From the NCBI RefSeq assembly GCF_024494725.1, contig NZ_JANHDK010000007.1, forward strand, positions 1 through 64,000: a DNA stretch of 64,000 nt, given 5' to 3'. This DNA is from Haloplanus ruber. GTDB lineage: Archaea; Halobacteriota; Halobacteria; Halobacteriales; Haloferacaceae. Shown here in pieces: positions 4,095 to 58,260 of the stretch. How positions within the stretch are numbered: the stretch's first letter is position 1; the number at the start of each line of letters is the position of its first letter. The notes below the pieces were generated by a model, which did no database searches, was not told where the DNA came from, and was given only the letters and a program-made list of their open reading frames with translations. Made by a program: the position numbers and the translations under genes.

Positions 4095-4212
4095 ATTACA
4101 GTATTTATGTGATATATTATATATAATAAATCCTTCTACTGAGTACAATGACACCGAGAGATCCTAATTACATCAAAAACATCTTATATACGAACAGTTA
4201 TGCATAATAATT
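4095..4212. promoter_or_regulatory. Divergent AT-rich promoter region
   Basis: The 118 bases between the divergent starts at 4094 and 4213 are very AT-rich. They hold TATA-like stretches on both sides: around 4110-4130 (ATATTATATATAATA) and at about 4187-4194 (CTTATATA). The latter lies some 20-25 bases before GTG 4213, which would suit a leaderless transcript as is common in haloarchaea. Confidence 0.5.
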
Positions 4213-6617: not shown

Positions 6618-8279
6618 TTAGTTGTCGTTCACGTAATTAACTAATCTAAGGATGTCAAGATTCCCAACAGACTGACCACCAATGTTCTGGTTGCTGTTAG
6701 CTGCATTAACCGCGTTAAGAACATCCAAATTTCCAATGCTGTCATCTCCACCGGTAAACCGCTGAAGATTCTGAGGCACCTGACTGTTGCTAGAGTCAGG
6801 TTGGAACGTCTGGTTGCTCTGTAACTCGTACGAACTCGTTGTCTGTTCGCTCTGGCCAGCGATCTCAATGTAGTACGTTCCCGACGTGGTGGCTTGATGA
6901 GAGATGGTAAGCCCTCCGAAGTCGTTTCCGTCGCTCGCCACTTGTGTTCGCCCGGGATCGTAAAGTCGGATGACCAGATCACTCAGCGAGTCTGCGGTCC
7001 TGATCTCAGCACTGACGCTCTCACTCTCGTTCAGCGTGATCTTGTAGTAGTCTAGCTCTCCGCCAACGATTCTGGCATCGCTGAATTCCTCGCGAAGAGG
7101 AGCAGCAGACTCAAAGTCGTCATTCGGTGCAAACTGGTCGTTCTCGGCTGGCGTTACGACGTCAACGTTTAATGTGTAGTCGCTTGTTGTCTGTTGGCTC
7201 TGCCCGAGTACTTCGATATAGTAAGTCCCGGTTTCTGGGGCCTTGATCGTGTAATCAATCCCCTGGAAGGAATTTCCATCGGCAACCAGTTGATTCCGCT
7301 CAGCATCGTAGAGCCGGATAGCCAAATCATCGAGCGAGTCTGCACTTGCTATGTCCACGCTAATCGCGTCGGTCACATTTGCTTCCAGTTGGTAGAAGTC
7401 CGACTCGCCTCCGACAATGCGCGCCTCACTGGAGCCCTCCGGAATTGATGCAGCTGATTCGAAGTCATCATTCGGTGCAAACTGGTCGTTCTCGGCTGGC
7501 GTTACGACATCGACATTTAATGTGTAGTTGCTCGTTGTTTGTTGGCTCTGCCCGAGTACTTCGATATAGTAAGTCCCGGTTTCTGGGGCCTTGATCGTGT
7601 AATCAATCCCTTGGAAGGAATTTCCATCGGCAGCCAGTTGACTCCGCTCAGCGTCGTAGAGCCGGATAGCCAAATCATCGAGCGAGTCTGCACTTGTTAT
7701 GTCCACACTAATCGCATCGGTCGCATTTGCTTCCAGTTGGTAGAAGTCCGACTCACCGCCAACGATGCGCGCCTCACTGGAACCCTCCGGAATTGATGCA
7801 GCCGATCCGAAGTCATCATTCGGTGCAAATTGATCATTTTCAGCCGGCGTCACAACATCAATATTCAGCGTATAGCTGCTGTTCGTTCCCGCGCTCTGTC
7901 CTGCAACCTCAACGTAGTAAGTTCCTGTCTCTGGTAGTTTGATAGTCGCGTCGATGCCCTGAAAGGCATTTCCGTCACTGGCCAGTTGTGTCCGATCGGC
8001 ATCGTAAATACGGAGTGTTAGATCATCCAGATTATCGGCGCTAGTGACTTCAGCGCTGAGTGCCTCAGTCGTGCTCGCATTTAATTTGAAGAAGTCCGAC
8101 TCACCGTCCACAATCTCACCCGAAAAAGTCCCTTCGGATATCGCTACTGCTGTCTCAAAGTCATCGTTCGGTTCTGTATCGGTGGCGTAGACGACTCCGC
8201 CACCAGTGAACGCCGGGGTAACAATACCCGCAGTGGTCACAAGGACGAGGGTGATGGCCAATGTTCGTTTCGTCGCCAT
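6618..8279 (-). CDS. Secreted protein with four PPC-like domains and dockerin-like C-terminus
   Basis: An exported protein of 553 residues from ATG 8279. The start is set by a clear signal peptide (MATKRTLAITLVLVTTAGIV). It then has four pre-peptidase C-terminal (PPC, bacterial) beta-sandwich domains, each opening with a PNDDF motif and including SDFY/SDFF and GTYY(I/V)E. Three of them repeat with a period of 116 residues (348 bp) at high DNA identity. The last 45 residues are the dockerin-like module (GNLDVLNAVNAAN, GNLDILRLVNYV). PPC domains usually accompany secreted peptidases, but no catalytic domain is present here. This suggests a binding or scaffold subunit recruited through the dockerin-like end. 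Starting at 8423 would place 48 residues ahead of the signal, which is unlikely. Confidence 0.85.
   Translation of the reverse strand: MATKRTLAITLVLVTTAGIVTPAFTGGGVVYATDTEPNDDFETAVAISEGTFSGEIVDGESDFFKLNASTTEALSAEVTSADNLDDLTLRIYDADRTQLASDGNAFQGIDATIKLPETGTYYVEVAGQSAGTNSSYTLNIDVVTPAENDQFAPNDDFGSAASIPEGSSEARIVGGESDFYQLEANATDAISVDITSADSLDDLAIRLYDAERSQLAADGNSFQGIDYTIKAPETGTYYIEVLGQSQQTTSNYTLNVDVVTPAENDQFAPNDDFESAASIPEGSSEARIVGGESDFYQLEANVTDAISVDIASADSLDDLAIRLYDAERNQLVADGNSFQGIDYTIKAPETGTYYIEVLGQSQQTTSDYTLNVDVVTPAENDQFAPNDDFESAAPLREEFSDARIVGGELDYYKITLNESESVSAEIRTADSLSDLVIRLYDPGRTQVASDGNDFGGLTISHQATTSGTYYIEIAGQSEQTTSSYELQSNQTFQPDSSNSQVPQNLQRFTGGDDSIGNLDVLNAVNAANSNQNIGGQSVGNLDILRLVNYVNDN
7090..8130 (-). 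repeat. Tandem 348-bp PPC-domain repeats
   Basis: Three direct repeats with a 348-bp period lie within the gene at 6618-8279. Adjacent units share long near-identical tracts: the segment starting near 7192 recurs near 7540. This high identity points to recent internal duplication or gene conversion. Confidence 0.75.
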
Positions 8280-8430
8280 TGGATCATTTATTCGATAAGT
8301 CACAAATTGTTGTAAATTTGTCGCCTCCGGGTGTGGAAACTTCAGAACCGGGAACACGCTTCTCTGAGCAGGGCGGTTTCCAACCAGTCTTCGCTGGAGC
8401 CCCATTATCGAATATCGCATCACTGCTCCT

Positions 8431-11397: not shown

Positions 11398-11958
11398 GTG
11401 TCAAACATGTCCGAATTTTCGCGAGATGGGGTTCAGTCATGGACTGAATCGATGAGTGCCCGCGACCGCATTCGGGCGGTCACCGAGACGCTCCGCGAAC
11501 CGCGGTCGGTCAACTGGATCAGCGAGCAGGCCGACGCCGCTTGGAGCACGACCAACGAGGAACTCCAGGATCTCGTTGACCAGGGCCAACTGCGTCGCGT
11601 TGAGGCCGGTGAGACGACGCGCTACCAGCCGGACTACACGCGATTGCTCTTCGAGGAGATCCGGACGCTCATCGAGAAAAACACGCGCGAGGAGCTGCGG
11701 AGCGAATTGGCCACGATCACCGAGGAGATCGAGGAGTGGCAGGCGACCTACGACGTCGAGACGTGGGAAGAACTCGAACAGTCGCTCGCCGACGGCGACC
11801 TCACAAGTGCGGAGCTCTGGGACCGCCGCGACGTCATCGCGTTCTGGCGCGAGAACGAGGAGGATCGCCGCCTCATCAAGCACGCACTGGAACTCTACTC
11901 CGACGTCGAAGCCGCCCGCGAGCAGATGGCTGACGTGGCTGACCCCGCCACGAGCTAA
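11398..11958 (+). CDS. Winged-HTH protein, likely regulator or antitoxin
   Basis: A 186-residue acidic protein. Residues about 20-75 form an HTH (IRAVTETLREPRSVNWISEQ, then WSTTNEELQDLVDQGQLRRV), followed by a long helical, coiled-coil-like part with EELRSELATITEEIEEW and a C-terminal domain. This pattern is common in haloarchaeal ArsR-like proteins paired with small toxin-like proteins. The next gene starts 17 bases downstream. ATG 11407 (MSEF) and 11452 are alternative starts. A two-gene toxin-antitoxin module is inferred from context. Confidence 0.65.
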   Translation: MSNMSEFSRDGVQSWTESMSARDRIRAVTETLREPRSVNWISEQADAAWSTTNEELQDLVDQGQLRRVEAGETTRYQPDYTRLLFEEIRTLIEKNTREELRSELATITEEIEEWQATYDVETWEELEQSLADGDLTSAELWDRRDVIAFWRENEEDRRLIKHALELYSDVEAAREQMADVADPATS

Positions 11959-11975
11959 TCCTCTTCTCTCACAGA

Positions 11976-12464
11976 ATGATCTTTCTTGCCGGTCGCGACC
12001 GCTATACACAGCGGACCCTCTTCCGGGACGTTCACGACCGATTGACGAACCAACCAGGGTGTGAAGAAGTCCGCTATCGCCCGTCTCGACGCCGACCCCG
12101 GTACGTCATCGCGGATGTCGATCCGACGACGTTCCTGAGTGACTCTTACGACGCGGCGACAGCACGACTGGAGATTCGTTTCTGGTATCCCGCCGGCGTC
12201 GACCACGAATACTACCGCATAAACTGGGTCGAACCGGACCGAAATCTGATGCTCGGCTTCCACCAAGACGCCGACCATCCGGACCTTGGGCCCTGTCATA
12301 TCCAACTCAATCACGAAGACACGCCGATTGGTCGGCACGAGGCGACGTTTCTCGATGCCCATCCACTCGCTGTCCTCGATGACCGACTACAGCAGTTCCC
12401 ACCCGCGCTAGATGCGATTCACTGGAAGAATAGAGCGCCCTCGCTCCCTACTTGGCCCGTCTAG
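11976..12464 (+). CDS. TumE/DUF6516-like protein (putative toxin)
   Basis: A 162-residue protein with an RYHW-like core: LEIRFWYPAGVDHEYYRINW, then HPDLGPCHIQLNHED and a conserved end (FLDAHPLAVLDDRLQQFPPA). This layout resembles TumE-type (DUF6516) toxin proteins, in which a short beta sheet carries His and Glu residues. It follows an HTH gene at 17 bases, which supports a pair. I give the family name as a resemblance only. Confidence 0.5.
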   Translation: MIFLAGRDRYTQRTLFRDVHDRLTNQPGCEEVRYRPSRRRPRYVIADVDPTTFLSDSYDAATARLEIRFWYPAGVDHEYYRINWVEPDRNLMLGFHQDADHPDLGPCHIQLNHEDTPIGRHEATFLDAHPLAVLDDRLQQFPPALDAIHWKNRAPSLPTWPV

Positions 12465-13874: not shown

Positions 13875-14222
13875 GTGGTTGTCTTGACGCATTCCGCCTC
13901 TGAGTTCTATGAGATGGCATCAACAGTGGCGACACACTCCCCAGCTGTATCGACTCTTGAACCAGCGAAGTGGTTTCTCGCGGAGTCCCTAATGAGCGAA
14001 CGTAGCAAACAGGGACAGAGGAGTCGCGAAGCGCTCGAAATGCATCTCGCTCAGGCGATCACTCGGTGTAAGTCGCCGGTTGTCCGGACTCATCTGGAGG
14101 CTGCGTTGCGGCATTGTCGTGACCTCCCGTCGACACCGCTCGTTGAGTGTCCTGTCTGTGGACGGGTTGGGTTGCCGGAACGAATCCAGATGCATGACTG
14201 TCCCAAGTCTCGGGACAGCTGA
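13875..14222 (+). CDS. Small zinc-finger protein
   Basis: A 115-residue helical protein ending in a zinc-finger-like motif: CPVCGRVGLPERIQMHDCP, with two Cys plus His and Cys. The helical part (REALEMHLAQAITRC, HLEAALRHCRDLP) has repeated amphipathic character. The start may be GTG 13875 or ATG 13914. It heads the block of collinear genes that includes the AAA+ and VWA proteins. Function is unknown; nucleic-acid or protein binding is plausible. Confidence 0.55.
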   Translation: MVVLTHSASEFYEMASTVATHSPAVSTLEPAKWFLAESLMSERSKQGQRSREALEMHLAQAITRCKSPVVRTHLEAALRHCRDLPSTPLVECPVCGRVGLPERIQMHDCPKSRDS

Positions 14223-14524
14223 CAACACCCACTCGCCGAGCTAGTTTTAGTCACGGCACCGTCCCGTTCCTCGGTGTCAACGACGCCGTCGACGCCGAGT
14301 ACCCCGACGCCATCACCGCTCGGGGCCGGCGGTACGTCCAAGACGAGGACACCCCGCAGTCGTTCAAAACGGCGCTCTCAGTCCTCCCCCACGCCGGCGA
14401 GGGCAACCTCTGGGCCGACAACGAATTCGTCGCCCCTGGCGAGGACGGCACCGTCGACGTCGACCTTGAGGCCATTCGGAACGTCCACGGACTCGATATC
14501 GATGATCTCGAAGGCCGAACCGGC
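14198..14524 (+). pseudogene. Start-less 5' coding part of the DUF932-like gene
   Basis: The frame of the next gene is open for 109 codons before its first ATG and has strong coding character (GVNDAVDAEYPDAITARGRR, ALSVLPHAGEGNLWADNEF). It contains no ATG, GTG or TTG. Its beginning overlaps the end of the zinc-finger gene. The protein family therefore probably extends upstream, and the start has been lost by a small indel or recombination, perhaps near 14240-14260. Confidence 0.6.
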
Positions 14525-15643
14525 ATGACGCTCCCAGAGATGGTCCAGCGGGCCGACCCCGAACCCCTCATCGGGATCGGGACGCACAAAGACATTATCG
14601 ACCGCCGCCGTCTAGCGCTTCGCACACTCGGCTTCGACGTGAAGTTCCGCTGGCAGATCGCGTCCAGTCGGTATACGCCCGGCAACATGCGCGCATTCTT
14701 CAAGCGGAAAATCGCCGCCTGTCAGCAACACGGGATCGAGAACGCCTTTGGGTGGATTCGCCACTACGACTGGGGTGGCTCGGTCACCATCACGACCATC
14801 TATCCCTCCAAGGGCTTCGAAATCGACCCCGCCGGCGAGACCGATATCGATCTGCAAAACGGCGAGTTGACCGTCGCGACCGATGGCGACCTGGAAGATG
14901 ATATCGATGAATCCGAGCCGACGACGGTGTACTACGGCGATCGGCTGGGATACGACTTCCGTGGCCGCCAGAAGTTGTGGGTGAAGCCAGTGATCTACAT
15001 CCCCGAGGCTGGTACGATGATCCCACTCCCGCACCCGGAAGCCGACCTCTCCCGAAAACACACAGGCAACCTGATGGACGACGCCATCGATTGGCACGAA
15101 CGGGTGCTGAGTACGATCGATGACCTCAGCCAGACGGTCAACCAAGAGATCAAACGGGCCCGTCTGGTCGCGATTGATTTCGGTGACCTGCCCTTCGATG
15201 TGGCCGAGTTCTATCGCTATCTCGGCGTTCGGAACGACAAATACGTTGAGGCCGCCGCCGACCGGGCGACGGCGCTGGCGAGTCCCTCGGACCAGCCGAC
15301 GTTGTGGAACCTCCAGTTGTCCCTGAAACTCGCCATTCTCGATAACTACGACGGCAATCGGGCGGGCAAGACCTACCGCGAATACCAAGAACTTGCCGGC
15401 GAGATTCTGCGCCATCCGGCGACGATGATCACCACCGCCAAAGAACAGTATCGGATCGAGGCGGCCCAAGACGAAGAGAAAGACGAGCCCGATCTCGATG
15501 CCGACCAGACGACCCTCGCCGACTCCCTTGAGGACGTGATGGATATGGCCGGCGTAACCGAGAACCGAATCGACGCCACGGAAGCCCAGCAGATCGAACA
15601 GCGTGTTCAACAGCGCCTGCCGAACTCGGGGGGTGAGGCCTAA
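14525..15643 (+). CDS. DUF932-like plasmid/phage-type protein
   Basis: 372 residues from the first ATG, with further coding sequence upstream that lacks a start. The middle resembles DUF932 proteins of phages and plasmids: IASSRYTPGNMRAFFKRKIA, FGWIRHYDWGGSVTITTIYP and a substrate-like beta-rich part (VYYGDRLGYDFRGRQKLWVK). The C-terminus is helical and acidic. The stop overlaps the ATG of the AAA+ gene (TAATG at 15641-15645), so the two are translationally coupled. DUF932 proteins have no established activity. If ATG 14525 is used, the product lacks about 90 residues of its family N-terminus. Confidence 0.65.
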   Translation: MTLPEMVQRADPEPLIGIGTHKDIIDRRRLALRTLGFDVKFRWQIASSRYTPGNMRAFFKRKIAACQQHGIENAFGWIRHYDWGGSVTITTIYPSKGFEIDPAGETDIDLQNGELTVATDGDLEDDIDESEPTTVYYGDRLGYDFRGRQKLWVKPVIYIPEAGTMIPLPHPEADLSRKHTGNLMDDAIDWHERVLSTIDDLSQTVNQEIKRARLVAIDFGDLPFDVAEFYRYLGVRNDKYVEAAADRATALASPSDQPTLWNLQLSLKLAILDNYDGNRAGKTYREYQELAGEILRHPATMITTAKEQYRIEAAQDEEKDEPDLDADQTTLADSLEDVMDMAGVTENRIDATEAQQIEQRVQQRLPNSGGEA

Positions 15644-17454
15644 TGGCCAGTACCGACGATGGAGCGGACACGCCCACCGACCAACAGATCCTGAGCCACT
15701 TCGTGGCTCGCAAACTCCGCGAAAATGGTGGAACTATTTCCATCCCCACGGTCACCTACGCCGTCAGCGACGTCGCCGACCTCACCGCCAACGAGGCGGG
15801 CGCGCTCATCACCAATGGACGGGGGACCATCTACACGATCGGCCGCGACCAACACGGCGAAGGACAGGTCGAAGGCGTCGATCCGATCGGTGCCGAACCG
15901 GCCGTCGTAGCGGAACGATTCGGTGGGCCGGCCCCCACCGATGCGGATTTCATCACCCTCGACGGCGTCGACGAGGCCGTGGAGGCGGCGCTGGTTGCGG
16001 CTGGGTACGGGTCGCTCGAAGAGTTGTCCGAGGCCGATCCCGAGACTGTCGCGACGAAGATCAACGACGAACTGGATGCCCGCGCCGAAGTGGCTGATTT
16101 CGATGATCTGAACGGGCTGACGAGCTCGGAGATCACCGACCTCCAACACCAAGACATCACCACCAAGCGTGACTTGGCCCAGGCCGATCCCCAGTACGTC
16201 GAAAGCCAGAGCCAGTCGTCCACCCTTCGGGCCGCGAAGATCAGGCAGGTCCAACGGCGGGTCGCCGACGACGTCGACATCTGGGACACCAGCGATGCCC
16301 AGAGCCTCATGACCGAGGCCCACCGACAGCTGCCCGCCAGCAACGAGATTGCCGCGACCCAGATCGAACGCCACAAGGCCCGGAAGGAGACACTCGGGCA
16401 CGCGGGGGCGGTCATCACCGAGGTCGAAGAGCAGACCGACACCGTGGGCGAACCGCTCGCAGTAGTCCGGGACGACTTGGACCCGGCTGATCCCGAAGCG
16501 AACTACGTGTCCGATATCGGTCGCAACGAGCCCGCCCCCGTGAACACCGGCTTTCCGATTCTCAAGGACGTTGGCTACGACCTCGTTCCGAAACCGGACA
16601 CCCACCCCGACGCCGGCCATTCGGCACTCCCGACCGACGAGGACGGGGAAGTCGTCCCGCCGACGGTGCCGGTCGAGCGCGACCTCCAGTTGCCCCTTGA
16701 CGAACTGATCGCGAAGAAGCTCGGGCGCAACGTCCCGGTGCGAATCGTTGGTCCCCGTGGGAGCGGGAAGAACTATCTCATGAAGTATCTTTGCTACAAG
16801 ACGAATCGGGGGTACAGGTCCTTAGACGTCGACAAAGCGACGATGCCCCAGGACCTCTTCGGTCCGATTGCCCCCGACGAAAACGGCAAGCTCGAGCCCA
16901 AGAACGCCGAAGTCAAGCAGGGACTGCTCAACGGCGACGTAATTGTTCTGAACGAGTTTCCCGTGATGCAAGCCGGGGCCGCCATGAGCCTGCATCAGCT
17001 CCTGAATGAGAACAAAATCGTCATCAAAAGCCACGGCCAAGAGATCGAACCCCATCCCCAGGCGCGTGTGGTCATCACGATGAACCCGCCGACGCGGGAG
17101 TACCGCGATTCCGAGCCGATGAACTCCGCGACTCGGGGGCGGTTCCGCTCGTTCTGGCAAGGGTATCCCGATACGGTCGAAGACGAAGTGCGGGCGCTGG
17201 ATCAACAGGTCAACACCGGCCAGCCCGTCGTCGACGAACAGACCCTCGAGAAAATCGTCGAATTCGCCCATCGAACCCGCAAGGACGACCTCTCGAACTG
17301 GCCGACCCTCTCGACGCGGAACCTCACCATCGTCTGCGAGCATATCGCTGACGGGGCCTCTCCGAACGCAGCGATGAAAAACGTCCTGCGGATGGTCGCC
17401 GAGCCGAACCAGCATCCCGAGGACGCCTTCGAGTCGCTCGGCGAAATACTGTGA
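15643..17454 (+). CDS. MoxR/CobS-like AAA+ ATPase with HhH-type N-terminal region
   Basis: A 603-residue protein. Residues about 95-205 hold two helix-hairpin-helix/DUF4332-like segments (LDGVDEAVEAALVAAGYGSL and DLNGLTSSEITDLQ). The AAA+ module starts near residue 345 with Walker A GPRGSGKN at 370-377. It has a MoxR-like insert region, sensor 1 VVITMNPP near 476-483 and a C-terminal helical lid. Walker B reads GDVIVLNEF, with Asn in place of the usual Asp before the catalytic Glu (N437/E438). MoxR-type ATPases work with VWA proteins as chaperone- or chelatase-like machines; the VWA partner is encoded at 20744-24103. Confidence 0.85.
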   Translation: MASTDDGADTPTDQQILSHFVARKLRENGGTISIPTVTYAVSDVADLTANEAGALITNGRGTIYTIGRDQHGEGQVEGVDPIGAEPAVVAERFGGPAPTDADFITLDGVDEAVEAALVAAGYGSLEELSEADPETVATKINDELDARAEVADFDDLNGLTSSEITDLQHQDITTKRDLAQADPQYVESQSQSSTLRAAKIRQVQRRVADDVDIWDTSDAQSLMTEAHRQLPASNEIAATQIERHKARKETLGHAGAVITEVEEQTDTVGEPLAVVRDDLDPADPEANYVSDIGRNEPAPVNTGFPILKDVGYDLVPKPDTHPDAGHSALPTDEDGEVVPPTVPVERDLQLPLDELIAKKLGRNVPVRIVGPRGSGKNYLMKYLCYKTNRGYRSLDVDKATMPQDLFGPIAPDENGKLEPKNAEVKQGLLNGDVIVLNEFPVMQAGAAMSLHQLLNENKIVIKSHGQEIEPHPQARVVITMNPPTREYRDSEPMNSATRGRFRSFWQGYPDTVEDEVRALDQQVNTGQPVVDEQTLEKIVEFAHRTRKDDLSNWPTLSTRNLTIVCEHIADGASPNAAMKNVLRMVAEPNQHPEDAFESLGEIL

Positions 17455-17569
17455 GTGGACTTCTCTGAGTGTTCTTCAGAAGCGTATATCGGCCACCAAA
17501 ACAGCTGTCAGGGGGAGGGGGGTGGATCCATTTGTGCCCTCCGGTTAGAGTGGAGAGCTCTAGTTGAGT

Positions 17570-18409
17570 ATGTCTGTTCAGAGTCGAATCGGCACCTTTG
17601 GCCCGGGGCAGGGCCCCGCAGCGAAGCGGCCCCCCGAACGGTTCGACGACGACGAACTCGAACATCATATCGCTCCTAACTGTATCTATGACTTCGATGT
17701 GGATCAGGTCAACGGGATCCACAAGCTCCGCCAGCGAATCCACGAGACGGTGTTTGCTGACGACCCCGCCGAGAAGTGGTCCTGGATCCTCGGCGACCAC
17801 TTCACCATGGGCAACAAAAAGGTCGCAAAAGAAGTCGCGATCTACAATTTCGGCGGTGCAGCGCATGACTGTCTGAATCTGGGAACAGAGCACTGCCAGG
17901 TGGACGCCGCGAATTGCTATGCCGTCAGAACGGAGGACAACTATCCACACCCACTCGATGCCCGCCGTCGCGAACTGATAATATGGGACCACTTGGACCC
18001 CCAGACATTCGCCGACGCGTTCCGCCACTGGCACGGTCGGAAACGAAACGAGGTGACGGCGCTGCGCCTGAACGAATCCGGGGACTTTCGGCACCGACAC
18101 GACCTGTTCAAAGTCGATCAAGTGGCCCGGCTGTTAGACGATATCGTGGACGTGTACACATACTCGTCCTCGGACTGGTTGCCGTGGCACAAGATCGACC
18201 ACATTGTGGTCAATCGCTCGAACCAGCGCAAGGACTTCGGCGCGCGCCGCTTTGAGGTCGTTGACGACGTCTCGGATATCCCCGACGGAGGAATCCGTTG
18301 CCCCCACGATGTCAGTGATGGGGAAATCAAGTGTGGATCATGCCGACTCTGTCTCGAGGAAGACGCCGGCGACGTGTATGTCAAGAACTTTTACGCCGAC
18401 GAAGAGTGA
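17570..18409 (+). CDS. GP88-like phage/plasmid protein
   Basis: A 279-residue protein from ATG 17570 (a TTG two codons earlier is also in frame). The middle resembles the GP88 family found in phages and plasmids: CLNLGTEHC...NCYAVRTEDNY, then LRLNESGDFRHRHDLFKVDQ and VYTYSSSDWLPW. A Cys cluster near the end (CPHDVSDGEIKCGSCRLC) could hold zinc or an iron-sulfur centre. No biochemical role is established for GP88. It lies in the same run as the AAA+ and VWA genes. A weak, 115-base spacer separates it from the AAA+ gene. Confidence 0.6.
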   Translation: MSVQSRIGTFGPGQGPAAKRPPERFDDDELEHHIAPNCIYDFDVDQVNGIHKLRQRIHETVFADDPAEKWSWILGDHFTMGNKKVAKEVAIYNFGGAAHDCLNLGTEHCQVDAANCYAVRTEDNYPHPLDARRRELIIWDHLDPQTFADAFRHWHGRKRNEVTALRLNESGDFRHRHDLFKVDQVARLLDDIVDVYTYSSSDWLPWHKIDHIVVNRSNQRKDFGARRFEVVDDVSDIPDGGIRCPHDVSDGEIKCGSCRLCLEEDAGDVYVKNFYADEE

Positions 18410-18412
18410 CCA

Positions 18413-19015
18413 ATGCCTGCCAACACCCAACTCATCGACGACGACGTGCCGCGCACTCCACCAACCGACAGCGCCGAGTGCGAACTCGAACGCCAATACG
18501 AGTGGCTGTTTCGCCGGTTCACCGCCCCGGAGTGGGACGTCTCGGAATTCCACATCGAGACCAACGACCACGCCGAAACCGACGCGACAGCGTTTGAGGG
18601 CGCACTGAGCCACGAGTCGGGGTCGCTCGTCCAGCTGCTCCCGTTCGATCCCGAGGCCCACCAGCGAGAGGCCCCGATCTTCCACGCCACTCGGGTTCGT
18701 CTTCGGGATGCAACCGAGGACACGAATCACTACATTACGGTCGCGGAGCCCACCGACGAGTGGGCGTCGGCACCGTTTCCACGAGAGGAATTTCTTGGAA
18801 AGCGGGCCCATCCCCGCTCGTCTGCCAGGAAGCAGATCGTCGCCCACGAGCAGGCGGCCGTCCACGACGAGGATGACCTTATCCTTGAAACCGATGGCGG
18901 AGCGCGAGGCTATGCCCTTACCACAGCGAAAGAAACGGTTCTCGCTGTGTTCGGGGCAACCCAGTCTGTCACGAAGCAAAAGCGCAAGCAAGCCGGCTTG
19001 GAAGGGTTCCTGTGA
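18413..19015 (+). CDS. Hypothetical protein of the AAA+/VWA block
   Basis: A 200-residue acidic protein that follows the GP88-like gene after three bases, so it is co-transcribed. N-terminal helical part (ELERQYEWLFRRFTAPEWDV), a beta-rich middle (FHATRVRLRDATEDTNHYIT) and a basic C-terminus (SVTKQKRKQAGLEGFL). I do not recognise the family. Confidence 0.7.
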   Translation: MPANTQLIDDDVPRTPPTDSAECELERQYEWLFRRFTAPEWDVSEFHIETNDHAETDATAFEGALSHESGSLVQLLPFDPEAHQREAPIFHATRVRLRDATEDTNHYITVAEPTDEWASAPFPREEFLGKRAHPRSSARKQIVAHEQAAVHDEDDLILETDGGARGYALTTAKETVLAVFGATQSVTKQKRKQAGLEGFL

Positions 19016-19018
19016 GCT

Positions 19019-19043
19019 GTTTGTACCTCCCGGAAGTAGTGAA
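19019..19043 (+). promoter_or_regulatory. GTTTGTATCTCCCG motif, copy 3
   Basis: GTTTGTACCTCCCGGAAGTAGTGAAGGA ends directly at the ATG of the next gene (19046). This copy overlaps the 3' end of the preceding gene's spacer and is so close to the start that it may act in translation or as a leaderless-promoter element. Confidence 0.55.
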
Positions 19044-19045
19044 GG

Positions 19046-19432
19046 ATGATCGAGATCAGCCAGCCGCCGGCCCACGAAGAAATCGACGCCGCGACAGCCG
19101 AACTTGAGGCCCTTGCGGCAGACGACACGCTCCAGTTCGAACCCCACGATGACAGCGAGGACGATAGGGACGGCCGCGATGCAATCCAGATCTGGGGCGT
19201 CGAACACAACGGCGAGTCGCTTGTGGTGAATCTCTCCGATCCCGACGTACCGGTCCACGACTGGGATCGGACTGTCGAGTACCTCCACCTCACTCGCTGG
19301 GACAAGTACTTTGGTCGGCCGGCGGCCCGGATCGAACAGTTCAACGGCGTGGAGGCGACCCACGTCGGCTACGTCCGTGGCATCGACCCGGACGGAGAGA
19401 CACCCACCGTCGTGTGGGAACCGGTGCGCTAA
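19046..19432 (+). CDS. Hypothetical protein of the AAA+/VWA block
   Basis: A 128-residue acidic protein. The N-terminus is helical (EEIDAATAELEALAADDTLQ) and the rest beta-rich (AIQIWGVEHNGESLVVNLSD; THVGYVRGIDPDGETPTVVW). The family is not recognised. Its ATG directly follows motif copy 3. Confidence 0.65.
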   Translation: MIEISQPPAHEEIDAATAELEALAADDTLQFEPHDDSEDDRDGRDAIQIWGVEHNGESLVVNLSDPDVPVHDWDRTVEYLHLTRWDKYFGRPAARIEQFNGVEATHVGYVRGIDPDGETPTVVWEPVR

Positions 19433-19455
19433 GTCCTCTGCGGCCGCTCCAGAGT

Positions 19456-19486
19456 GTTTGTATCTCCCGAAGAAGTAGTGAAAGAG
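19456..19486 (+). promoter_or_regulatory. GTTTGTATCTCCCG motif, copy 4
   Basis: GTTTGTATCTCCCGAAGAAG followed by TAGTGAAAGAGGG, 14 bases before ATG 19500. Very similar to copy 5 over about 30 bases. Confidence 0.55.
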
Positions 19487-19499
19487 GGCTACCAGAAAG

Positions 19500-19904
19500 A
19501 TGTGTGACCATCCCACCACTGAGGCGTTCGAATCGCTCGCAGACGGCACGAAACTCACGATTCAGTTAGAAAGCGACGACACCCCAGAGATGGCTGGCGC
19601 AACTGTCGCCCGAATCGGGGACGGCTTCGCCCGCCCGTACCTGCAGGAAGTCTCGGGGCGCTTCTGTGGGACAGTCACCAACGACGACGGGCCCAACGAA
19701 CTGGTCCTCGAGGGAGAACTGTATCGATACGAGATTCAGCTGCCAGATATCGACTGGTGGGGCGAGGAGTGCTCCGAGTGCGGCGAGGTAGGCCCGCCCG
19801 AGGAGCCCTGCCCCACCTGCGAAAGCAGAGTTGCCCAGATGGCATTCACGGGCGGCGCGACGCCTGCAACCCGCCGACCACCCCACGGAAATACAGCGCG
19901 GTAG
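19500..19904 (+). CDS. Zinc-ribbon protein of the AAA+/VWA block
   Basis: A 134-residue protein. The N-terminal part is a small beta domain (TKLTIQLESDDTPEMAGATV). Near the end a Cys4 zinc ribbon is visible: CSECGEVGPPEEPCPTC. A basic, Thr- and Pro-rich tail follows. The family is not known to me. Confidence 0.65.
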   Translation: MCDHPTTEAFESLADGTKLTIQLESDDTPEMAGATVARIGDGFARPYLQEVSGRFCGTVTNDDGPNELVLEGELYRYEIQLPDIDWWGEECSECGEVGPPEEPCPTCESRVAQMAFTGGATPATRRPPHGNTAR

Positions 19905-19929
19905 ACGTAGCAGATTCTCGCTTCAATAC

Positions 19930-20271
19930 ATGACGATGCAAGTCAATACGATCATCGAGTTCGAAGTGACGTTTAAACAAAACCTAGAATCCTCCAATGC
20001 CCTGTTCGGTCTAGTCGATCGCTGTGCAGGGTTGTTTGTCCAAGATGGCGACAACCGGGCTAGGCACGAGAAGGTTGAGGTGTCCGGGCGAACAGCCGCC
20101 GGCAAGATCGAGGCGTGGCGGGAGATTTCGACAACGGAACCAGTCGCGCCCGTCCGTGAAGATATCGCCAACGAGGTTGTCCCCGAACTGCATGACGTGC
20201 TGTCTTCGCTCCCGTACGTCATCGACGTGACCATCGGGTCTGTCGAACTGACCGACGCTGATATCAACTAG
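19930..20271 (+). CDS. Tandem paralogue A, hypothetical
   Basis: A 113-residue protein from ATG 19930 (ATG 19936 also possible). It is a paralogue of the next gene: both contain QVNT(I/L)I(E/Q)FEVTF, (K/E)AWREIS(T/A)TEP, VREDIA(N/D)EV(V/I)PEL and end in VELTDADIN. Two beta strands flank a helical part. Function unknown. Earlier in-frame starts would overlap the zinc-ribbon gene and lack paralogue support. Confidence 0.7.
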   Translation: MTMQVNTIIEFEVTFKQNLESSNALFGLVDRCAGLFVQDGDNRARHEKVEVSGRTAAGKIEAWREISTTEPVAPVREDIANEVVPELHDVLSSLPYVIDVTIGSVELTDADIN

Positions 20272-20323
20272 ATCACGATAAGTCACTGAATACGGTATCG
20301 TTCCACTATGGCCACTGCAGGGT

Positions 20324-20355
20324 GTTTGTATCTCCCGAAAAAGTAGTGAAGGAGG
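20324..20355 (+). promoter_or_regulatory. GTTTGTATCTCCCG motif, copy 5
   Basis: GTTTGTATCTCCCGAAAAAG followed by TAGTGAAGGAGGCC, about 50 bases before ATG 20403. Its core and flank match copy 4. Confidence 0.55.
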
Positions 20356-20402
20356 CCTAAGGGGGATGTGAACAGTCACAGATCCCCAATTCAACTATAT
20401 CA

Positions 20403-20738
20403 ATGCAAGTCAACACGCTCATCCAGTTCGAGGTAACGTTCGAAGAAAATAGGGGTGGCCCAAACACCCGATGCCAACTAGTCGATTGTTGTGCAGAGAT
20501 GTTTGGTGGCGCTGGTGACATGCGAACCAAGCATGGTGAGGTTGGAATGCACGGGTGGACAGCCGTCGGCGAGATCAAGGCATGGCGAGAGATTTCGGCA
20601 ACGGAACCAATGGATTCAGTTCGTGAAGACATCGCTGACGAAGTTATCCCCGAACTGCGAGACGTGCTTTCCTCGCTCCCGTACGTCGCAGACGTCGTCA
20701 TCAAGCCCGTCGAACTGACCGACGCTGATATCAACTAA
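20403..20738 (+). CDS. Tandem paralogue B, hypothetical
   Basis: A 111-residue protein, a paralogue of the gene at 19930 with the same ends and core. It differs most around residues 15-45. The VWA gene starts five bases after its stop, so the two are probably co-transcribed. Two copies with diverged middles may bind different partners. Confidence 0.7.
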   Translation: MQVNTLIQFEVTFEENRGGPNTRCQLVDCCAEMFGGAGDMRTKHGEVGMHGWTAVGEIKAWREISATEPMDSVREDIADEVIPELRDVLSSLPYVADVVIKPVELTDADIN

Positions 20739-20743
20739 CCGCC

Positions 20744-23700
20744 ATGAGCCACCAAGCTCGCACCGCTCCCGGCCACGACAGTGACTTGACGCCACCAGAG
20801 GCGGCACAGGTCCGTACCTCCCGGGACCGGGCCACAAGCATCAAACAGTACATCGAAGGACTGCTCCCATCCGATCTGGCCGCCGAAGTTGACGTCGTCA
20901 TCACGGAGAACGTCGCGACGGCGGCGGTCATGCCGGCAACGGAGGACGCACTGCTGGATGGCGATGAGACGGACTTCGACCGCCAGCAGGCCCAGAACCT
21001 CATCAACCGCGTCGACGGCGACTATCTCGTGCTTGTCACTGGGCGCGAGGCCGACACGGATTCGATCTGTCTCTCCGATCAGCTCACCGCCGACGCCGCC
21101 CACCAGTTTGGGCTTGCGTTCCACGAGACGCTCCACGTTTTGAAAACTTCCTTCGGCGCTGTCCAGTCACTCGTCGAGACCGAGGTCGAAGCGCAGTACC
21201 ACGAGTTCGTCCACGAACTGATCAACATCGTCGAGGACGGGGCCATCGAGAACGAAGCCCAGACCGGCGACGATTTCACCGAGCGAGCGGGCAACCGGCT
21301 CACCCTCATTCGGCAGATGCACTCCCAGACGGTTGCGGACCTCCCCAGCGAGGCACGCGAATTCACCTTCGGGGAGGCAGTCATGAAGGCCCTCCACGAC
21401 CGGATCATCTTCGATACTGGCGTGACCGATGCGCTCCTCGATGAATCGGATCCCCGTGTGACCTTCGCGTCAGCGAGTGGCCGTGAGGCGTTCCAGGAGG
21501 TTCACGAAGAGGTGGAGGCCCTTCGAGACGACGTCCTCGCGATGCGAAGCGACCACAGCGACCGACTCTACGAGGACGATCGGAAGGCGTCGATCCAGCG
21601 GGCCAAGCGAGCGATTGCCTTCTGGCAGGATGTCCTGAAGCCGCTCTACGAGGACGGCGAGTCCCAACAACAGGGCGGGCAGCAACAGGGCGACCAGCAG
21701 GAAGGCAGCCAACAACAGGCCGGTCAACAAGGCCAGTCGCAATCCCAACAATCCCAGCAGGGACAGTCCCCGCCCGACAGCAGTCCCGACACACCCGAAC
21801 AGGCGAACGAGAGTGGTTCAGCCCCCGAGTCCGGCGAGACGCCTGACTCGCCAACCGATACGCCCGATCAGCAGTCGGACACCGCCGAGGGCGAGGACAC
21901 CTTCGACTGTCCCGAGTGTGAGGACTCGTTCGATTCGGACCACGGGCGAAGCGTCCACTACGGCAAACAGCACGGCGACACCGACGAGCTTGACGAACAG
22001 CTGGATGACGAAGACCGATCCAGCGAGACCGCCGACGGTGACGCCGGCGATATCGACCCAGAGGAACTGTCGTTGGATACGGACAGCATCGACAGCCCGC
22101 TCCAAGGTGTCCAGTCCCATCCCTCACTCGCGGACGAACCCGACCCGGACGACGTCGACACCCAGCCACAACCAGCCCCGGAGCACTCGCCATCGTCGAC
22201 GGACGACACCGCTGAGCAAAACGACACTGACGATAGCGGAGCCGACGGAGGGCCATCCGAGGCCGACTCCATCCCCAGCGAGGCCGGCGACGACGACCGT
22301 AGCGACGGCAACACAGACACGCCCACCGAAGACAGCGGCGACCACGAAGGCGAGAGCGAGGGTGGCCCCGAGTCCACCCCAGACAGTCACGGACTCGGCG
22401 ACGAATCGGCCGCCCAAGACGCTGGCGATCAGCCCGCCGACAGCGCCGACCAACCCACCAGTGGCCAAGACGGACAGCCGGACAGCGAGGCCGCCGACAG
22501 CGCCGACCAACCCGCTGACAGCGCCGATTCGCCCACCGGAGACCAAGACGGACAGTCAGACAGCGAAGCCGACGGGAGCGCCGGCGACTCGGATGTCGCG
22601 ACCACTGACTCAAGCGCCAACACGACCGACCTCGCCTCCCACACTGACCAGTCTTCAGCAGACGATACTGGCCAGCAGGCAACGTTCGGGGACTTCGGTG
22701 GCAGCGATGACGATGCTCAGTCGTCGGCGTCCGGCATGGACAGCGCCGACGAGACAGCCGCCACGTCCGACGACGCCACCCGCACGGACGATTCCCAGGG
22801 CGAGACAGCCGCCGAGAGCGACGGTAGCCCAGACACGGCGGAGACATCCAGCGCCGACACGGACCCGGCTGGGGGCACCGAGAACGCCGAGACGAACAGC
22901 ACACAGGACGACGACAGCCCTGAGTCCGCTCCCACGAACACTGACACCGGGCCGTCGACGCCGATGGGAGCCGACAGCGCCGGCGACCAGTCCACCGACC
23001 CAGACGCGGGCGAGCAGCCGGACGACGACCCAATCACCACGGCCGACGACACCGACTCCCAGCGTGACTCAACGCCCGATACGGAACCCACTGACGACGC
23101 CCCCACAGAGTCACCGGCCGGGCCCGCACACGACGACGCCGATCTCAGCCCCGAAGACTTCGCCAGTGACCGGAACCGAGCAAAGCGCACCGCCGACCGA
23201 AGCACCGTCGACGAACAGGGCCTTGCCGAGGACCTCCAGACACTCGAGGATGCCCTTGGCGAGGAACAGGAAACGACACCTGACGGCACCCAACAAGGAA
23301 ACGGCGCTGGGCCCGGGTCGGTCGATGAACTGACGATCCTTCCGGACTCGGCCTCCAACGAGCAAAGTGACTCTTGGGGCAGTGTCCAGCGGGCCGCCGA
23401 CACCGTCGCTGACACCCTCGCTAAGGAACTCCGACTCGACCAGCAGACAGCGACGCGGGGTGGCCTCTCAAGTGGCACGACGGTCAACACGAAGACTGCC
23501 TACCGACTGGGGCATAACGACCCGCGGACGTTCAGCGAGTCACTGCCCGGCGACGAGAAAGAGTACTTCGTCGTCATCGTCCTCGATCGGTCGGGGTCGA
23601 TGAGTCGCGATTACGGTGCATCCACCGGGAAAATCGATATCGCGACGAGTGCTGTGGCCCGCTTTGCCGTGGCCTGCGAGAACCTCGATATCGACGTCGC

Positions 23701-24103
23701 GGTGATCGACTTCTATGATGATGAAGCGCGGTACGTCAAGCCGCCCTCAGTCGAAACGGAATACGCACAGGAGGCCATCCTCGCCACGGACACAGGCGGC
23801 AGGACGCCACTTGCCGATGCACTCTCGCTCGCCCGAACGGTCGCCGACGCCGACCGGAAGGAATCGCTGATCATCTCGATCACCGACGACAAGCCCGACG
23901 ACGTCGACGCCGTCGAAGCGCAGACCAAGGCCTCGTACTCACCGATCTGTTCGTTGACTATCGCGACAGACTGTCACCCCGGAGACCCACCTGAACAGGC
24001 AGAAAAACTTGAGCGGGCGTACAACCAGACGACGACCGTCTTCGAGCCGTCGAAGCTCGATAGTCGAATCGACGAACTCGCGTCGTTGCTCGGGGCGCAC
24101 TAG
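20744..24103 (+). CDS. VWA protein with HExxH N-terminal domain, C2H2 finger and long acidic linker
   Basis: A 1119-residue protein. The N-terminal about 300 residues contain HETLH (127-131), a zincin HExxH motif, with a following helical part (NIVEDGAIENEA) like the metallopeptidase-like region of DUF2201/CobT-type proteins. Residues about 305-900 are low-complexity (Gln-rich, then Ser/Thr/Asp/Glu/Pro-rich) and enclose a C2H2 finger (C389, C392, H405, H410). The C-terminus is a VWA domain with an intact MIDAS: D948-x-S950-x-S952, a Thr in TGGRTPLADAL and a late Asp in ISITDDKPDD. It is the expected partner of the MoxR-like ATPase at 15643. The target of the pair is unknown. Confidence 0.85.
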   Translation: MSHQARTAPGHDSDLTPPEAAQVRTSRDRATSIKQYIEGLLPSDLAAEVDVVITENVATAAVMPATEDALLDGDETDFDRQQAQNLINRVDGDYLVLVTGREADTDSICLSDQLTADAAHQFGLAFHETLHVLKTSFGAVQSLVETEVEAQYHEFVHELINIVEDGAIENEAQTGDDFTERAGNRLTLIRQMHSQTVADLPSEAREFTFGEAVMKALHDRIIFDTGVTDALLDESDPRVTFASASGREAFQEVHEEVEALRDDVLAMRSDHSDRLYEDDRKASIQRAKRAIAFWQDVLKPLYEDGESQQQGGQQQGDQQEGSQQQAGQQGQSQSQQSQQGQSPPDSSPDTPEQANESGSAPESGETPDSPTDTPDQQSDTAEGEDTFDCPECEDSFDSDHGRSVHYGKQHGDTDELDEQLDDEDRSSETADGDAGDIDPEELSLDTDSIDSPLQGVQSHPSLADEPDPDDVDTQPQPAPEHSPSSTDDTAEQNDTDDSGADGGPSEADSIPSEAGDDDRSDGNTDTPTEDSGDHEGESEGGPESTPDSHGLGDESAAQDAGDQPADSADQPTSGQDGQPDSEAADSADQPADSADSPTGDQDGQSDSEADGSAGDSDVATTDSSANTTDLASHTDQSSADDTGQQATFGDFGGSDDDAQSSASGMDSADETAATSDDATRTDDSQGETAAESDGSPDTAETSSADTDPAGGTENAETNSTQDDDSPESAPTNTDTGPSTPMGADSAGDQSTDPDAGEQPDDDPITTADDTDSQRDSTPDTEPTDDAPTESPAGPAHDDADLSPEDFASDRNRAKRTADRSTVDEQGLAEDLQTLEDALGEEQETTPDGTQQGNGAGPGSVDELTILPDSASNEQSDSWGSVQRAADTVADTLAKELRLDQQTATRGGLSSGTTVNTKTAYRLGHNDPRTFSESLPGDEKEYFVVIVLDRSGSMSRDYGASTGKIDIATSAVARFAVACENLDIDVAVIDFYDDEARYVKPPSVETEYAQEAILATDTGGRTPLADALSLARTVADADRKESLIISITDDKPDDVDAVEAQTKASYSPICSLTIATDCHPGDPPEQAEKLERAYNQTTTVFEPSKLDSRIDELASLLGAH

Positions 24104-24284: not shown

Positions 24285-25457
24285 ATGTTCCTTTACAGGA
24301 GCACGGCGGTATCGGTGGCAGTATTTACCTTGGTAATGATAACATCGGCTCCCGTGATGGGTGCGGCGCCAATGATGGTTGCAGATACTACAGAGAACAG
24401 CGCAGCCGAGCGCATGGAACATCCCGACAAGTTCTCATGGAGCGAGATACAACCTACCAATGGGCCTACGGACAGGCTCCGGTCGGCACGCGTGGCAACC
24501 TTCGGACAGACCGACGGTAGCGACGTTTCAATCGCTGCCAACAGTAGTGGAACGGACGGGGGGCTTGATGTTGGTATCGAATTGCAGCAGGAAGCGACCG
24601 TCTCTCAAGATGGGAGCGTTGATATTGAAACGTACCCGGACAACCGTGCAAACCAATCAGTATCTGGAACGCTTGAGCTGGTAATTGATCAGAACCGAGA
24701 TAACATCTTCAATACAAATGAAACCGTAGCATCCAGACAAATCAGCCTCAGCGCAGACGAATACTCCACAAAAGTACTCACATATAGTGATGTCCAGCTT
24801 GCTTCCGGCGATTACGAGTATCAAGCACGATTGAGTTCAGACGGCCAGACGGTCACGAGTTTTACCAATGGAACGCTAACTGTCACCGGTAACGATACTA
24901 GCGACGGTAACGATGGGAACCAGTCGGAAACAGCGGAGTTCCTGTCGGCAAGCCAGTCAGAAGCCACCCTTGCTCCAGGCGAAGAGATCACACTCAGCTA
25001 CAGGGTGCAGAACCCGTTAGAAAAGCCGACAAGCATGCTCATCGAGTTCCCTAATCTGCCTGCAAATGTATCGATTCAATCGGTTGACGGTGACGTCGCA
25101 CAAGAGTTGCTGGGCTCAACTCCACCAGGTGTGGTTACGTCAGAGCTCGCTGCTGATGGATCGGCGACAGTCGATCTAACTCTTACAGTTCCTGAAAACG
25201 CCACTACAGGCCAGAAGACCGTGACGACAGATGCAACCGCGAGTTCTAATCAGGGGACGCTTACAAACACGACCACAACAACGCTGACTGTGACTGAACA
25301 AGACCCACTCGTGAACCGGTTCGGTGGTTCCGACAACGAAATCGGTAATCTGGACATCCTCCGAGCAGTCAACGCAGCCAACACTAATCAAGAAGTCGGC
25401 GGCGAACCAGTCAGCAATCTGGATGTCCTCGAACTGATCAACCGCGCGAATCAGTAA
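24285..25457 (+). CDS. Secreted beta-domain protein with dockerin-like C-terminus
   Basis: A 390-residue exported protein with a signal peptide (STAVSVAVFTLVMITSAPVM). A CARDB/Ig-like beta domain (QSEATLAPGEEITLSYRVQN; VDLTLTVPENATTGQKTV) follows, then the dockerin-like module (GNLDILRAVNAAN, SNLDVLELINRA). It is closely related to the interrupted gene at 62329-62723, sharing GDVAQ(E/N)L.GSTPPG. Many NxS/T sequons suggest N-glycosylation. No catalytic domain is present; a role in a surface assembly with the other dockerin-like proteins is inferred. Confidence 0.8.
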   Translation: MFLYRSTAVSVAVFTLVMITSAPVMGAAPMMVADTTENSAAERMEHPDKFSWSEIQPTNGPTDRLRSARVATFGQTDGSDVSIAANSSGTDGGLDVGIELQQEATVSQDGSVDIETYPDNRANQSVSGTLELVIDQNRDNIFNTNETVASRQISLSADEYSTKVLTYSDVQLASGDYEYQARLSSDGQTVTSFTNGTLTVTGNDTSDGNDGNQSETAEFLSASQSEATLAPGEEITLSYRVQNPLEKPTSMLIEFPNLPANVSIQSVDGDVAQELLGSTPPGVVTSELAADGSATVDLTLTVPENATTGQKTVTTDATASSNQGTLTNTTTTTLTVTEQDPLVNRFGGSDNEIGNLDILRAVNAANTNQEVGGEPVSNLDVLELINRANQ

Positions 25458-29026: not shown

Positions 29027-29554
29027 TTATCGAAATTCGTTGGATGTGATCGTCTCGAGATACTCGACACTGACGTACCGGTATTCGATACGGTCGCTGA
29101 AGCCGTGCTGTGGCAAGAGTGTCTCGGCCGCTTGTCCCGCCGGTTTGTCGGTCGTCAAGAGAACGACGTGGTCCGCCTGTCCGGTATCGAGTATCTGGGC
29201 AGCAAGCCCCACGAGCGCCGTGTCCGCTTTCTCGGTGATGTCTTCGTCGCGGTTGGTCTCGTTGGCGATGAACCGGCGTGCTTCGTCCATCACCGTCGAG
29301 ACGAGCGGATTGGCGTAGTTGAGTTCGTCGGCGACGGCGATCCAGCCCTCTTCGAATCCATCGGGATAGGGAATGTTCGCCGAAGGATACTCCTCCGCTG
29401 CCGGATCGCCCCCGAGCTCTTCGTAGACGCGCTGGGGGACACTCAACGAGACACCTGCCTGTCGGAGTGCCCGACGAAGTCGGTGAAATTTGTCCTTGTC
29501 CGGCCCACCACACCGGACGAAGACGCCGGTATCGGCGATATAGATCGTCGTCAT
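29027..29554 (-). CDS. PIN-like nuclease domain protein
   Basis: 175 residues with PIN-type acidic positions: Asp in TIYIADTGVFVRCGG near residue 8, Glu in RVYEELGG, Asp in EKADTALVGLA and Asp in VLLTTDKPAG. The start overlaps the stop of the HTH gene (ATGA), so the two are coupled. This is consistent with a toxin-antitoxin pair in which the HTH protein is regulator or antitoxin, linked to the integrase. Confidence 0.7.
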   Translation of the reverse strand: MTTIYIADTGVFVRCGGPDKDKFHRLRRALRQAGVSLSVPQRVYEELGGDPAAEEYPSANIPYPDGFEEGWIAVADELNYANPLVSTVMDEARRFIANETNRDEDITEKADTALVGLAAQILDTGQADHVVLLTTDKPAGQAAETLLPQHGFSDRIEYRYVSVEYLETITSNEFR

Positions 29555-30087
29555 GCAACCGTGCCAGCGTACTCGATGGCAACCGGTTCCATCGCTTGGA
29601 GAATGATCTCGGCTTCAAGCGGTGAAAGGTCAAGTTCCCGGGCCGCAATCCGATGGTTGACCGTGCCGTCGACATACTCGTAGGCGTACTCGAGGGCGAC
29701 AGCAAGACCGTCGAGGCCATGGCGCTCGATGTAGACGTCGATGTCCTCGTTCTGGTCGCGGCGGGCAACGGCGGCGATAAGTGCCGGCGTGATCGTTTGG
29801 GTCTCACCGTCCGTCGAGAGCGTGAGTGCAATCGACTCGGCATCGTATTCGTAGGGGCGCTGCTCACGGGTCTTCTCCACTAAGCCAGCTGTTTCGAGAT
29901 TCTGCACGTAGTCGTAGGCGGTCCCCTGTGGGATGTCGAGCTCGTCGACCAGTTCGGACACAGTGACCGGACCGTGTTGTAAGATATGGGCGTACAGCCG
30001 AGCGAGTGCCGGCGTTTCGAGGAGGTCGGCGACCGTCTGAAGCTGCTGAATTGGTGGTTGGCCTGACCGGGAAGGTGATTGCGCCAT
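29551..30087 (-). CDS. Winged-HTH regulator (ArsR/TrmB-like)
   Basis: 178 residues. A winged HTH lies at about 25-80 (ARLYAHILQHGPVTVSELVD, IPQGTAYDYVQNLETAGLVE). The C-terminal half is helical and includes ERHGLDGLAVALEYAYEYVD. It is the first gene of the HTH-PIN-integrase operon. A promoter-like AT-rich stretch lies at about 30095-30120. It probably represses its own operon. Confidence 0.7.
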   Translation of the reverse strand: MAQSPSRSGQPPIQQLQTVADLLETPALARLYAHILQHGPVTVSELVDELDIPQGTAYDYVQNLETAGLVEKTREQRPYEYDAESIALTLSTDGETQTITPALIAAVARRDQNEDIDVYIERHGLDGLAVALEYAYEYVDGTVNHRIAARELDLSPLEAEIILQAMEPVAIEYAGTVA

Positions 30088-58094: not shown

Positions 58095-58136
58095 ATTCTC
58101 TCGTTTTGTGACCAGAATCCAGTACAAACGCGCGTC

Positions 58137-58260
58137 TGACATCCTCCCACGGCTAAAGCCGTGGGGTTCCCCCACTGGGGGTTGAACCCACGGAAATGGA
58201 GAGGTTCGCAGGTTCGTCGTCACGTGGGACGATGACCTGCGTTTCGGGCTGTACCAGTAC
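58137..58260 (-). ncRNA. Candidate omega-RNA (TnpB guide RNA) region
   Basis: In IS605-type elements the guide RNA is made from the 3' part of tnpB and the right end, and the flanking bases give the guide. Here this would be the segment including the right-end hairpin, with a guide beginning GACGCGCGTTTGTACTGG. This is inferred from the family, not seen as a separate signal. Confidence 0.4.

Follow-up and report, generated by a model that had tools for sequence, protein, structure and literature searches.

A conserved trio of DUF932-like, AAA+ and HExxH-VWA genes on haloarchaeal plasmids and its possible role in plasmid maintenance

What does a MoxR-like AAA+ ATPase do beside a von Willebrand factor A (VWA) protein with an HExxH motif on the plasmids of haloarchaea? 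The question is raised by a 64,000-nucleotide stretch of Haloplanus ruber (hereafter the window), the first 64 kb of an 88.1-kb contig, in which a sequence-only reading had joined these two genes with DUF932-like, GP88-like, zinc-finger, and small proteins into one block at positions 13875–24103. We found every gene named in that reading at these positions on the + strand. The block consists of a conserved core of three genes, coding for a DUF932-like protein (14198–15643), an AAA+ ATPase (15643–17454), and an HExxH-VWA protein (20744–24103), together with passengers. We tentatively propose, with somewhat less than even confidence, that the core would be an ATP-driven protein-remodelling machine of the MoxR, NorQD, CobST, and midasin kind that serves plasmid maintenance, with the DUF932-like protein as its adaptor or client.

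A fixed gene order on large plasmids

The distribution of the core was traced through two sets of loci, found independently and overlapping in part. Close relatives of the AAA+ protein occur in about two dozen of 391 haloarchaeal genomes, and a profile of the DUF932-like protein run against 84,980 genomes found 34 loci, all haloarchaeal. The block is present in about 6% of genomes. The core order of DUF932-like, AAA+, and VWA genes on one strand recurs in dozens of loci and many genera. The AAA+ gene follows the DUF932-like gene in 32 of the 34 loci, the exceptions being a 3.6-kb contig and a DUF932-like fragment, and the VWA gene follows the AAA+ gene in 26 of 32, with most of the other six stretches ending early. 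In PLSDB, 27 records contain the DUF932-like protein over at least 80% of its length and 21 contain the AAA+ protein; all organisms listed are haloarchaeal. Scans of IMG/VR with the profiles of the three core proteins found no relatives.

Recurrence of one order in so many loci puts the association of the core genes far beyond chance. The gaps between them range from 6 bp to 7.3 kb. The core proteins also vary together. Across 26 non-redundant loci, their distance matrices correlate at r = 0.87–0.96 (mirror-tree; permutation p = 0.0005), and in the 19 loci with PCNA, the core–core correlations (0.93–0.97) exceed those between core and PCNA (0.82–0.87). Such values are what one would expect of a functional unit carried along on a common plasmid backbone, although they are no proof of contact. 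The sequence-only reading had named independent occurrence of the genes as one outcome that would speak against a system; for the core, we found co-occurrence in a fixed order instead.

The link to plasmids that the earlier reading suspected is borne out, as most core loci lie on large haloarchaeal plasmids, where PCNA and TFB genes are frequent neighbours. Clusters of PCNA, TFB, and DUF6166 recur near the DUF932-like gene, usually upstream, in 23, 22, and 15 of 32 loci, respectively, and in a larger, partly redundant set, PCNA is present in 33 loci and TFB in 32. The complete 91.8-kb plasmid pCBA1113-02 carries Orc1/Cdc6, PolB, ParA, PCNA, and TFB along with the core trio. PolB was considered as a fixed partner and rejected, being found on some carriers only.

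The core proteins and their viral relatives

The AAA+ protein of the window belongs to the MoxR/CobS/NorQ class (AAA_5, E = 3.8e-18; phrog_249, E = 5e-34). The AAA_5 domain was found in all 17 AAA+ proteins searched, and the profile of the family matches midasin, CbbQ, CobS, and NorQ in the PDB. A helix-hairpin-helix (HhH) region in the N-terminal part is present in 11 of the 17; the window protein matches HHH_5 (E = 8e-5). All 17 also match the gas-vesicle protein GvpN, but the window protein scores only 17.2 bits against a cut-off of 266.8, so the match reflects a shared AAA fold rather than membership, and we rejected a GvpN identity.

GK[ST] and DE are the usual Walker motifs of active AAA+ enzymes, not of MoxR proteins exclusively. 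In the window, Walker A reads GPRGSGKN and Walker B reads VLNE, and the family follows suit: of 51 distinct sequences, 49 have GKN at the end of Walker A, and 47 have NE rather than DE in Walker B. By sequence comparison, Asn in both motifs is a new feature of the plasmid AAA+ family, and it may point to a different use of metal or to slow turnover. Viral AAA+ proteins vary in this respect, with GKT and DE in the proteins of the two haloviruses checked and NE in two actinophage proteins, one of which has GKT. The catalytic Glu, sensor-1 Asn (TMNPPT), and sensor-2 Arg, whose roles we take from knowledge of the family, appear to be kept in the alignment.

The third core protein (1119 aa; VWA_2, E = 1.6e-10) consists of an N-terminal domain with HExxH at residues 127–131, an acidic low-complexity linker of ~550 residues, about 80% of them D, E, S, T, Q, G, N, or P, and a VWA domain with an intact metal ion-dependent adhesion site (MIDAS). 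Of 43 N-domains, 42 keep HExxH and a second motif, NxxEDxAIE; the MIDAS motif DxSxSM is present in 40 of 40 C-domains, where the MIDAS T and D are also invariant in the alignment. Thus, the HExxH motif on which the sequence-only reading had based a protease- or chelatase-like machine is genuine and widely conserved. The C2H2 finger named in the same reading exists as a CxxC-x12-H-x4-H motif near residue 389, in the linker, but is common only to the window and its closest relative, the locus L078 (labels of this form denote block loci in other haloarchaeal genomes), and is absent from 20 other full-length relatives.

The N-domain resembles those of viral proteins. At the corresponding site, actinophage “CobT” proteins have HELCH and LEDQRIE, and the N-domain profile aligns with phage CobT N-domains at 93.8% probability (hhalign, E = 1.8e-7). 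Its predicted model (predicted local distance difference test score [pLDDT] 86, predicted template-modelling score [pTM] 0.82) contains strands, an HExxH helix (113–134), and a next helix with the ED motif (150–174), an arrangement that, in the model, is as expected for a gluzincin core. The best matches in a library of viral structures were the VWA protein of HVTV-1 (E = 8e-9, TM 0.64), HHTV-2, and phage CobT proteins. A fold search of the PDB gave no significant match, and Pfam and a profile search of PDB sequences returned only noise. By analogy, the domain is perhaps a peptidase.

The DUF932-like protein forms a family of its own (phrog_13083, E = 1.7e-61), with a mean column identity of 60% over 27 aligned rows. 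The window protein has no match above the cut-off to Pfam DUF932 (PF06067), and a direct hhalign comparison of the plasmid family with true haloarchaeal DUF932 found none either. Instead, the plasmid family aligns at 99.9% probability with homologues from haloviruses and plasmids (Hardycor1, HCTV-2, HSTV-2, HHTV-2, pNG600, and pJ7-1), which in turn align with true haloarchaeal DUF932 at 93% (E = 3e-7). The label therefore holds indirectly, as a distant, transitive relation at the level of profiles, and in this sense a CobS-CobT-like pair joined to a DUF932-like protein, as first read, is indeed present. Relatives of the DUF932-like protein occur without an AAA+ gene on NC_006394.1 (pNG600) and NC_018225.1 (pJ7-1), so the wider family also exists without the machine.

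The window copy of this gene is altered at its 5′ end and may be damaged. Its frame is open from 14198 to 15643 and homology begins at ~14255, but ATG, GTG, and TTG are all absent between the upstream stop and 14525, where the first canonical start (ATG) lies. CTG codons at 14198 and 14219 would be candidate alternative starts. The L078 protein, 83% identical, has a normal ATG start and an extra N-terminal segment. Because of this missing start, the window block may be partly decayed even though its AAA+ and VWA genes are intact. The DUF932-like start is also missing in L033, where the AAA+ gene is broken, and the block copies in L107 (Halobaculum gomorrense) and L064 are apparently decayed. 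The core genes of Halosimplex pelagicum appear intact.

In contrast to the first impression of an undescribed pair, the AAA+/VWA combination is of a kind already described and carried by tailed viruses (PMC8651126, PMC7824862, PMC7911831). Liu et al. (2021) named the pair CobS/CobT in Druskaviridae and Saparoviridae and proposed that it hijacks host CobN (PMC8651126), and Hardycor1 also carries such a pair (PMC7911831). These viral pairs share the AAA+ and VWA proteins with the plasmid core, the HExxH motif in HCTV-2, and a DUF932-like homologue in Hardycor1, HCTV-2, and HHTV-2, although it is not named as a partner there. The plasmid version differs in its fixed trio order, its PCNA and TFB neighbours, its GKN and NE motifs where the two haloviral proteins have GKT and DE, the absence of terminase, and hosts of which half lack CobN. 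In jumbo phages, Iyer et al. (2021) described a MoxR AAA+ gene beside a vWA protein with a fused N-terminal metallopeptidase domain and proposed a role in virion assembly (PMC7824862); by contrast, the plasmid version lies on archaeal plasmids, without terminase and with a DUF932-like partner. NorQ/NorD likewise combines a MoxR-class AAA+ protein with a MIDAS-bearing VWA protein that has an N-terminal domain and a long linker (PMC9976466, PMC13036017), but sequence identity is low, and our block has an HExxH domain and no nitric oxide reductase.

A putative remodelling machine and its rivals

By analogy with these systems, the AAA+ protein would form a hexameric ring on which the VWA domain would dock, as in NorQD, where a finger of the VWA protein lies in the pore and the linker is stretched as ATP drives rotation (PMC13036017). 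Joined by the long acidic linker, the HExxH and VWA domains would be able to hold a client at two points. Cycles of ATP use would then twist the VWA domain and open the client, which the gluzincin-like domain, if it has peptidase activity, would perhaps cut. The DUF932-like protein might be a dedicated adaptor or the client itself. As to the final target, the HhH region in the AAA+ protein and the genes for PCNA, TFB, and DUF6166 that often lie nearby hint at a replication or transcription factor bound to DNA; by acting on it, the machine would serve plasmid maintenance.

Several observations weigh against this proposal. Its last two steps, in which the DUF932-like protein would serve as adaptor or client and a DNA-bound plasmid protein as target, are deduced from the order of the genes, the HhH region, and the neighbouring PCNA and TFB genes. 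Relatives of PCNA, TFB, and DUF6166 are absent from the window’s own contig, which means that these neighbours are not obligatory. In both Walker motifs, Asn takes the place of the residue that usually contacts Mg2+, so that normal ATPase turnover cannot be assumed from the sequence. The DUF932-like protein gave a poor predicted model (pLDDT 68), with no significant match to a known fold in a search of the PDB; its profile found nothing among PDB sequences. Finally, the correlated distances may reflect co-inheritance on plasmids rather than physical interaction. The most specific form of the proposal, an undescribed plasmid-maintenance machine in which an HhH-bearing AAA+ protein with Asn Walker motifs, an HExxH-VWA protein, and a DUF932-like client remodel or cleave DNA-bound replication or transcription proteins of the plasmid, is put forward as a doubtful candidate.

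Two other explanations come from the viral relatives. In a viral-type cobaltochelatase, the pair would act as CobS and CobT and, with host CobN, insert cobalt into corrin. This has been proposed for the related viral pair (PMC8651126), and it agrees with the match of the AAA+ profile to CobS structures, with some signal for the CobS model TIGR01650 in 5 of the 17 AAA+ proteins, and with the presence of CobN in the window’s own genome. However, 12 of 23 block-bearing genomes, none less than 91% complete, have no CobN; across the class, 80 of 145 genomes have it. The 12 include four same-genus genomes, and some CobN-free genomes of that genus bear several blocks. As CobN and the block are not associated, CobN is not required, and with half of the carriers lacking it we rejected cobaltochelatase as the general role of the plasmid version. 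Moreover, the AAA+ and VWA proteins of the window fail the NCBIfam CobS (TIGR01650) and CobT (TIGR01651) models, matches being confined to some of their relatives, and a chelatase would leave the intact HExxH motif and the DUF932-like partner unexplained. The sequence-only reading had itself asked whether the locus was a known cobaltochelatase or of gas-vesicle type; the CobN survey and the low GvpN score speak against both, and we consider the chelatase very unlikely. A chaperone-protease for virion or tail assembly, as proposed for jumbo phages and Acidianus two-tailed virus, would account for the shared architecture (PMC7824862) and the relatives in haloviruses, and is only slightly less unlikely. 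None of 9 block plasmids has Terminase_6N, which was detected in all 4 control haloviruses, in one with a score under the curated cut-off; the core adjoins PCNA and TFB rather than structural genes; and the complete plasmid pCBA1113-02, judged from its annotation, has no virion genes. The CobN and terminase results bear on the plasmid version and do not disprove either role in viruses, for which we found no experimental test in the literature.

Somewhat more weight, though still little, can be given to two further roles. The sequence-only reading had raised the possibility of conflict. In such a role, the AAA+ and VWA proteins would act as sensor and effector in defence of the plasmid against viruses or other plasmids. 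Ternary MoxR-vWA conflict systems are known (PMC7159879), and the gaps within the blocks carry toxin-antitoxin pairs, TnpB, and other cargo. Yet the core proteins match none of the PADLOC defence models, no counterpart of the third component in those systems turned up, and the core is a feature of the plasmid backbone beside PCNA and TFB rather than variable cargo, making such a role unlikely. We judge equally unlikely a NorQD-like metallochaperone that supplies metal to a metalloprotein encoded by the plasmid, its client being either the DUF932-like protein or a GP88-like Cys-cluster protein. Metal insertion is the task of both NorQD and CobST (PMC13036017), and GP88 proteins have two conserved Cys clusters in alignment and, where found in the sampled genomes, lie on block contigs. 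However, GP88 occurs in 2 of 194 genomes, whereas the block occurs in about 6%, and no set of Cys residues is invariant in the alignment of the DUF932-like proteins. Scarcely credible, by contrast, is a chance assembly of unrelated genes on a mosaic plasmid. It holds for the small proteins and probably for the small zinc finger, and the window, lacking both the usual neighbours and a DUF932-like start, could be read in this way, but for the core it is refuted by an order that recurs in many genera and by the correlated distances.

Passengers, neighbouring genes, and meaning of the trio

The claim of a single block stands for the core, with its fixed order and co-occurrence; the rest, namely GP88, the zinc fingers, and the small proteins, lacks such conservation and falls outside the core. 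Likewise, a search for the same gene order in other haloarchaeal genomes and plasmids, as the sequence-only reading suggested, recovers the three core genes in order, but GP88 in only the two genomes mentioned above. In the window, the cargo between the AAA+ and VWA genes consists of GP88 and five small open reading frames (18413–20738), all on the + strand. The GP88-like gene (17564–18409; PF17338, 29.4 bits against a cut-off of 24.4) has its nearest viral relative in HGTV-1 gp279 (39%). The second genome with GP88 (G173) has two copies on its block contig, at distances of ~5.4 and ~7 kb from the end of the VWA gene, on the far side of a PCNA gene. GP88 is thus weakly associated with the block and perhaps a rare companion rather than a random one.

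The zinc-finger assignments in the window are sub-threshold in Pfam. They concern a small C2HC-type zinc-finger-like protein ahead of the core (13875–14222, +; zf-C2HC_2, E = 0.024), shorter relatives of which were matched by tblastn in L033, L035, L041, L044, and L045 without a fixed position, and the zinc-ribbon-like end of a 134-aa protein, p134 (19500–19904; zf-ChsH2, E = 0.007). Among the small cargo, just fragments recur, in L078: the C-terminus of p134 and the C-terminal part of the 200-aa orphan p200 (18413–19015). A 128-aa orphan (19046–19432) matches no family and has no relative in other loci, and the neighbouring genes at 19888–20271 and 20403–20738, the latter coding for 111 aa, are tandem duplicates by alignment of their products. 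A promoter scan of the window used bacterial models and is uninformative for archaea.

The gap cargo differs from plasmid to plasmid and elsewhere also includes transposases, an M48 peptidase, and a SelO-family protein. Two gene pairs of the window outside the block resemble such cargo. A DUF7342 protein with a small partner (11398–12464, +), perhaps a mobile toxin-antitoxin-type pair, has a similar-looking two-gene counterpart between the AAA+ and VWA genes of L102 (6345–7349) and L104 (13197–14201). A helix-turn-helix (HTH) protein and a PIN-like protein (29027–30087, −) resemble a pair between the DUF932-like and AAA+ genes of L067, L092, L093, L096, L098, and L108, with 42% for the HTH protein of L096. 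Elsewhere in the window, three secreted-type proteins (2136–4154, −; 6618–8423, −; 24285–25457, +) have a common C-terminal repeat, GNLDxLxAVNxAN...GGxxVxNLDxLxLxN, that appears dockerin-like by eye, and a UvrD-type helicase with a PD-(D/E)XK nuclease end and a second large protein (52528–58223, −) have the look of a RecB/AddAB-type pair.

Viral MoxR/VWA pairs have been read as B12 enzymes or as virion chaperones. On the plasmids, the pair is found apart from both settings: CobN is missing from half of the hosts, and none of the plasmids tested has a terminase. With a constant third partner from the DUF932 superfamily, both the pair and the function of the DUF932-like protein become testable by genetics in culturable haloarchaea. 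If the proposed plasmid-maintenance machine is real, it would give a DUF932-superfamily protein its first function and would hint that the viral “CobS/CobT” pair has been misnamed.

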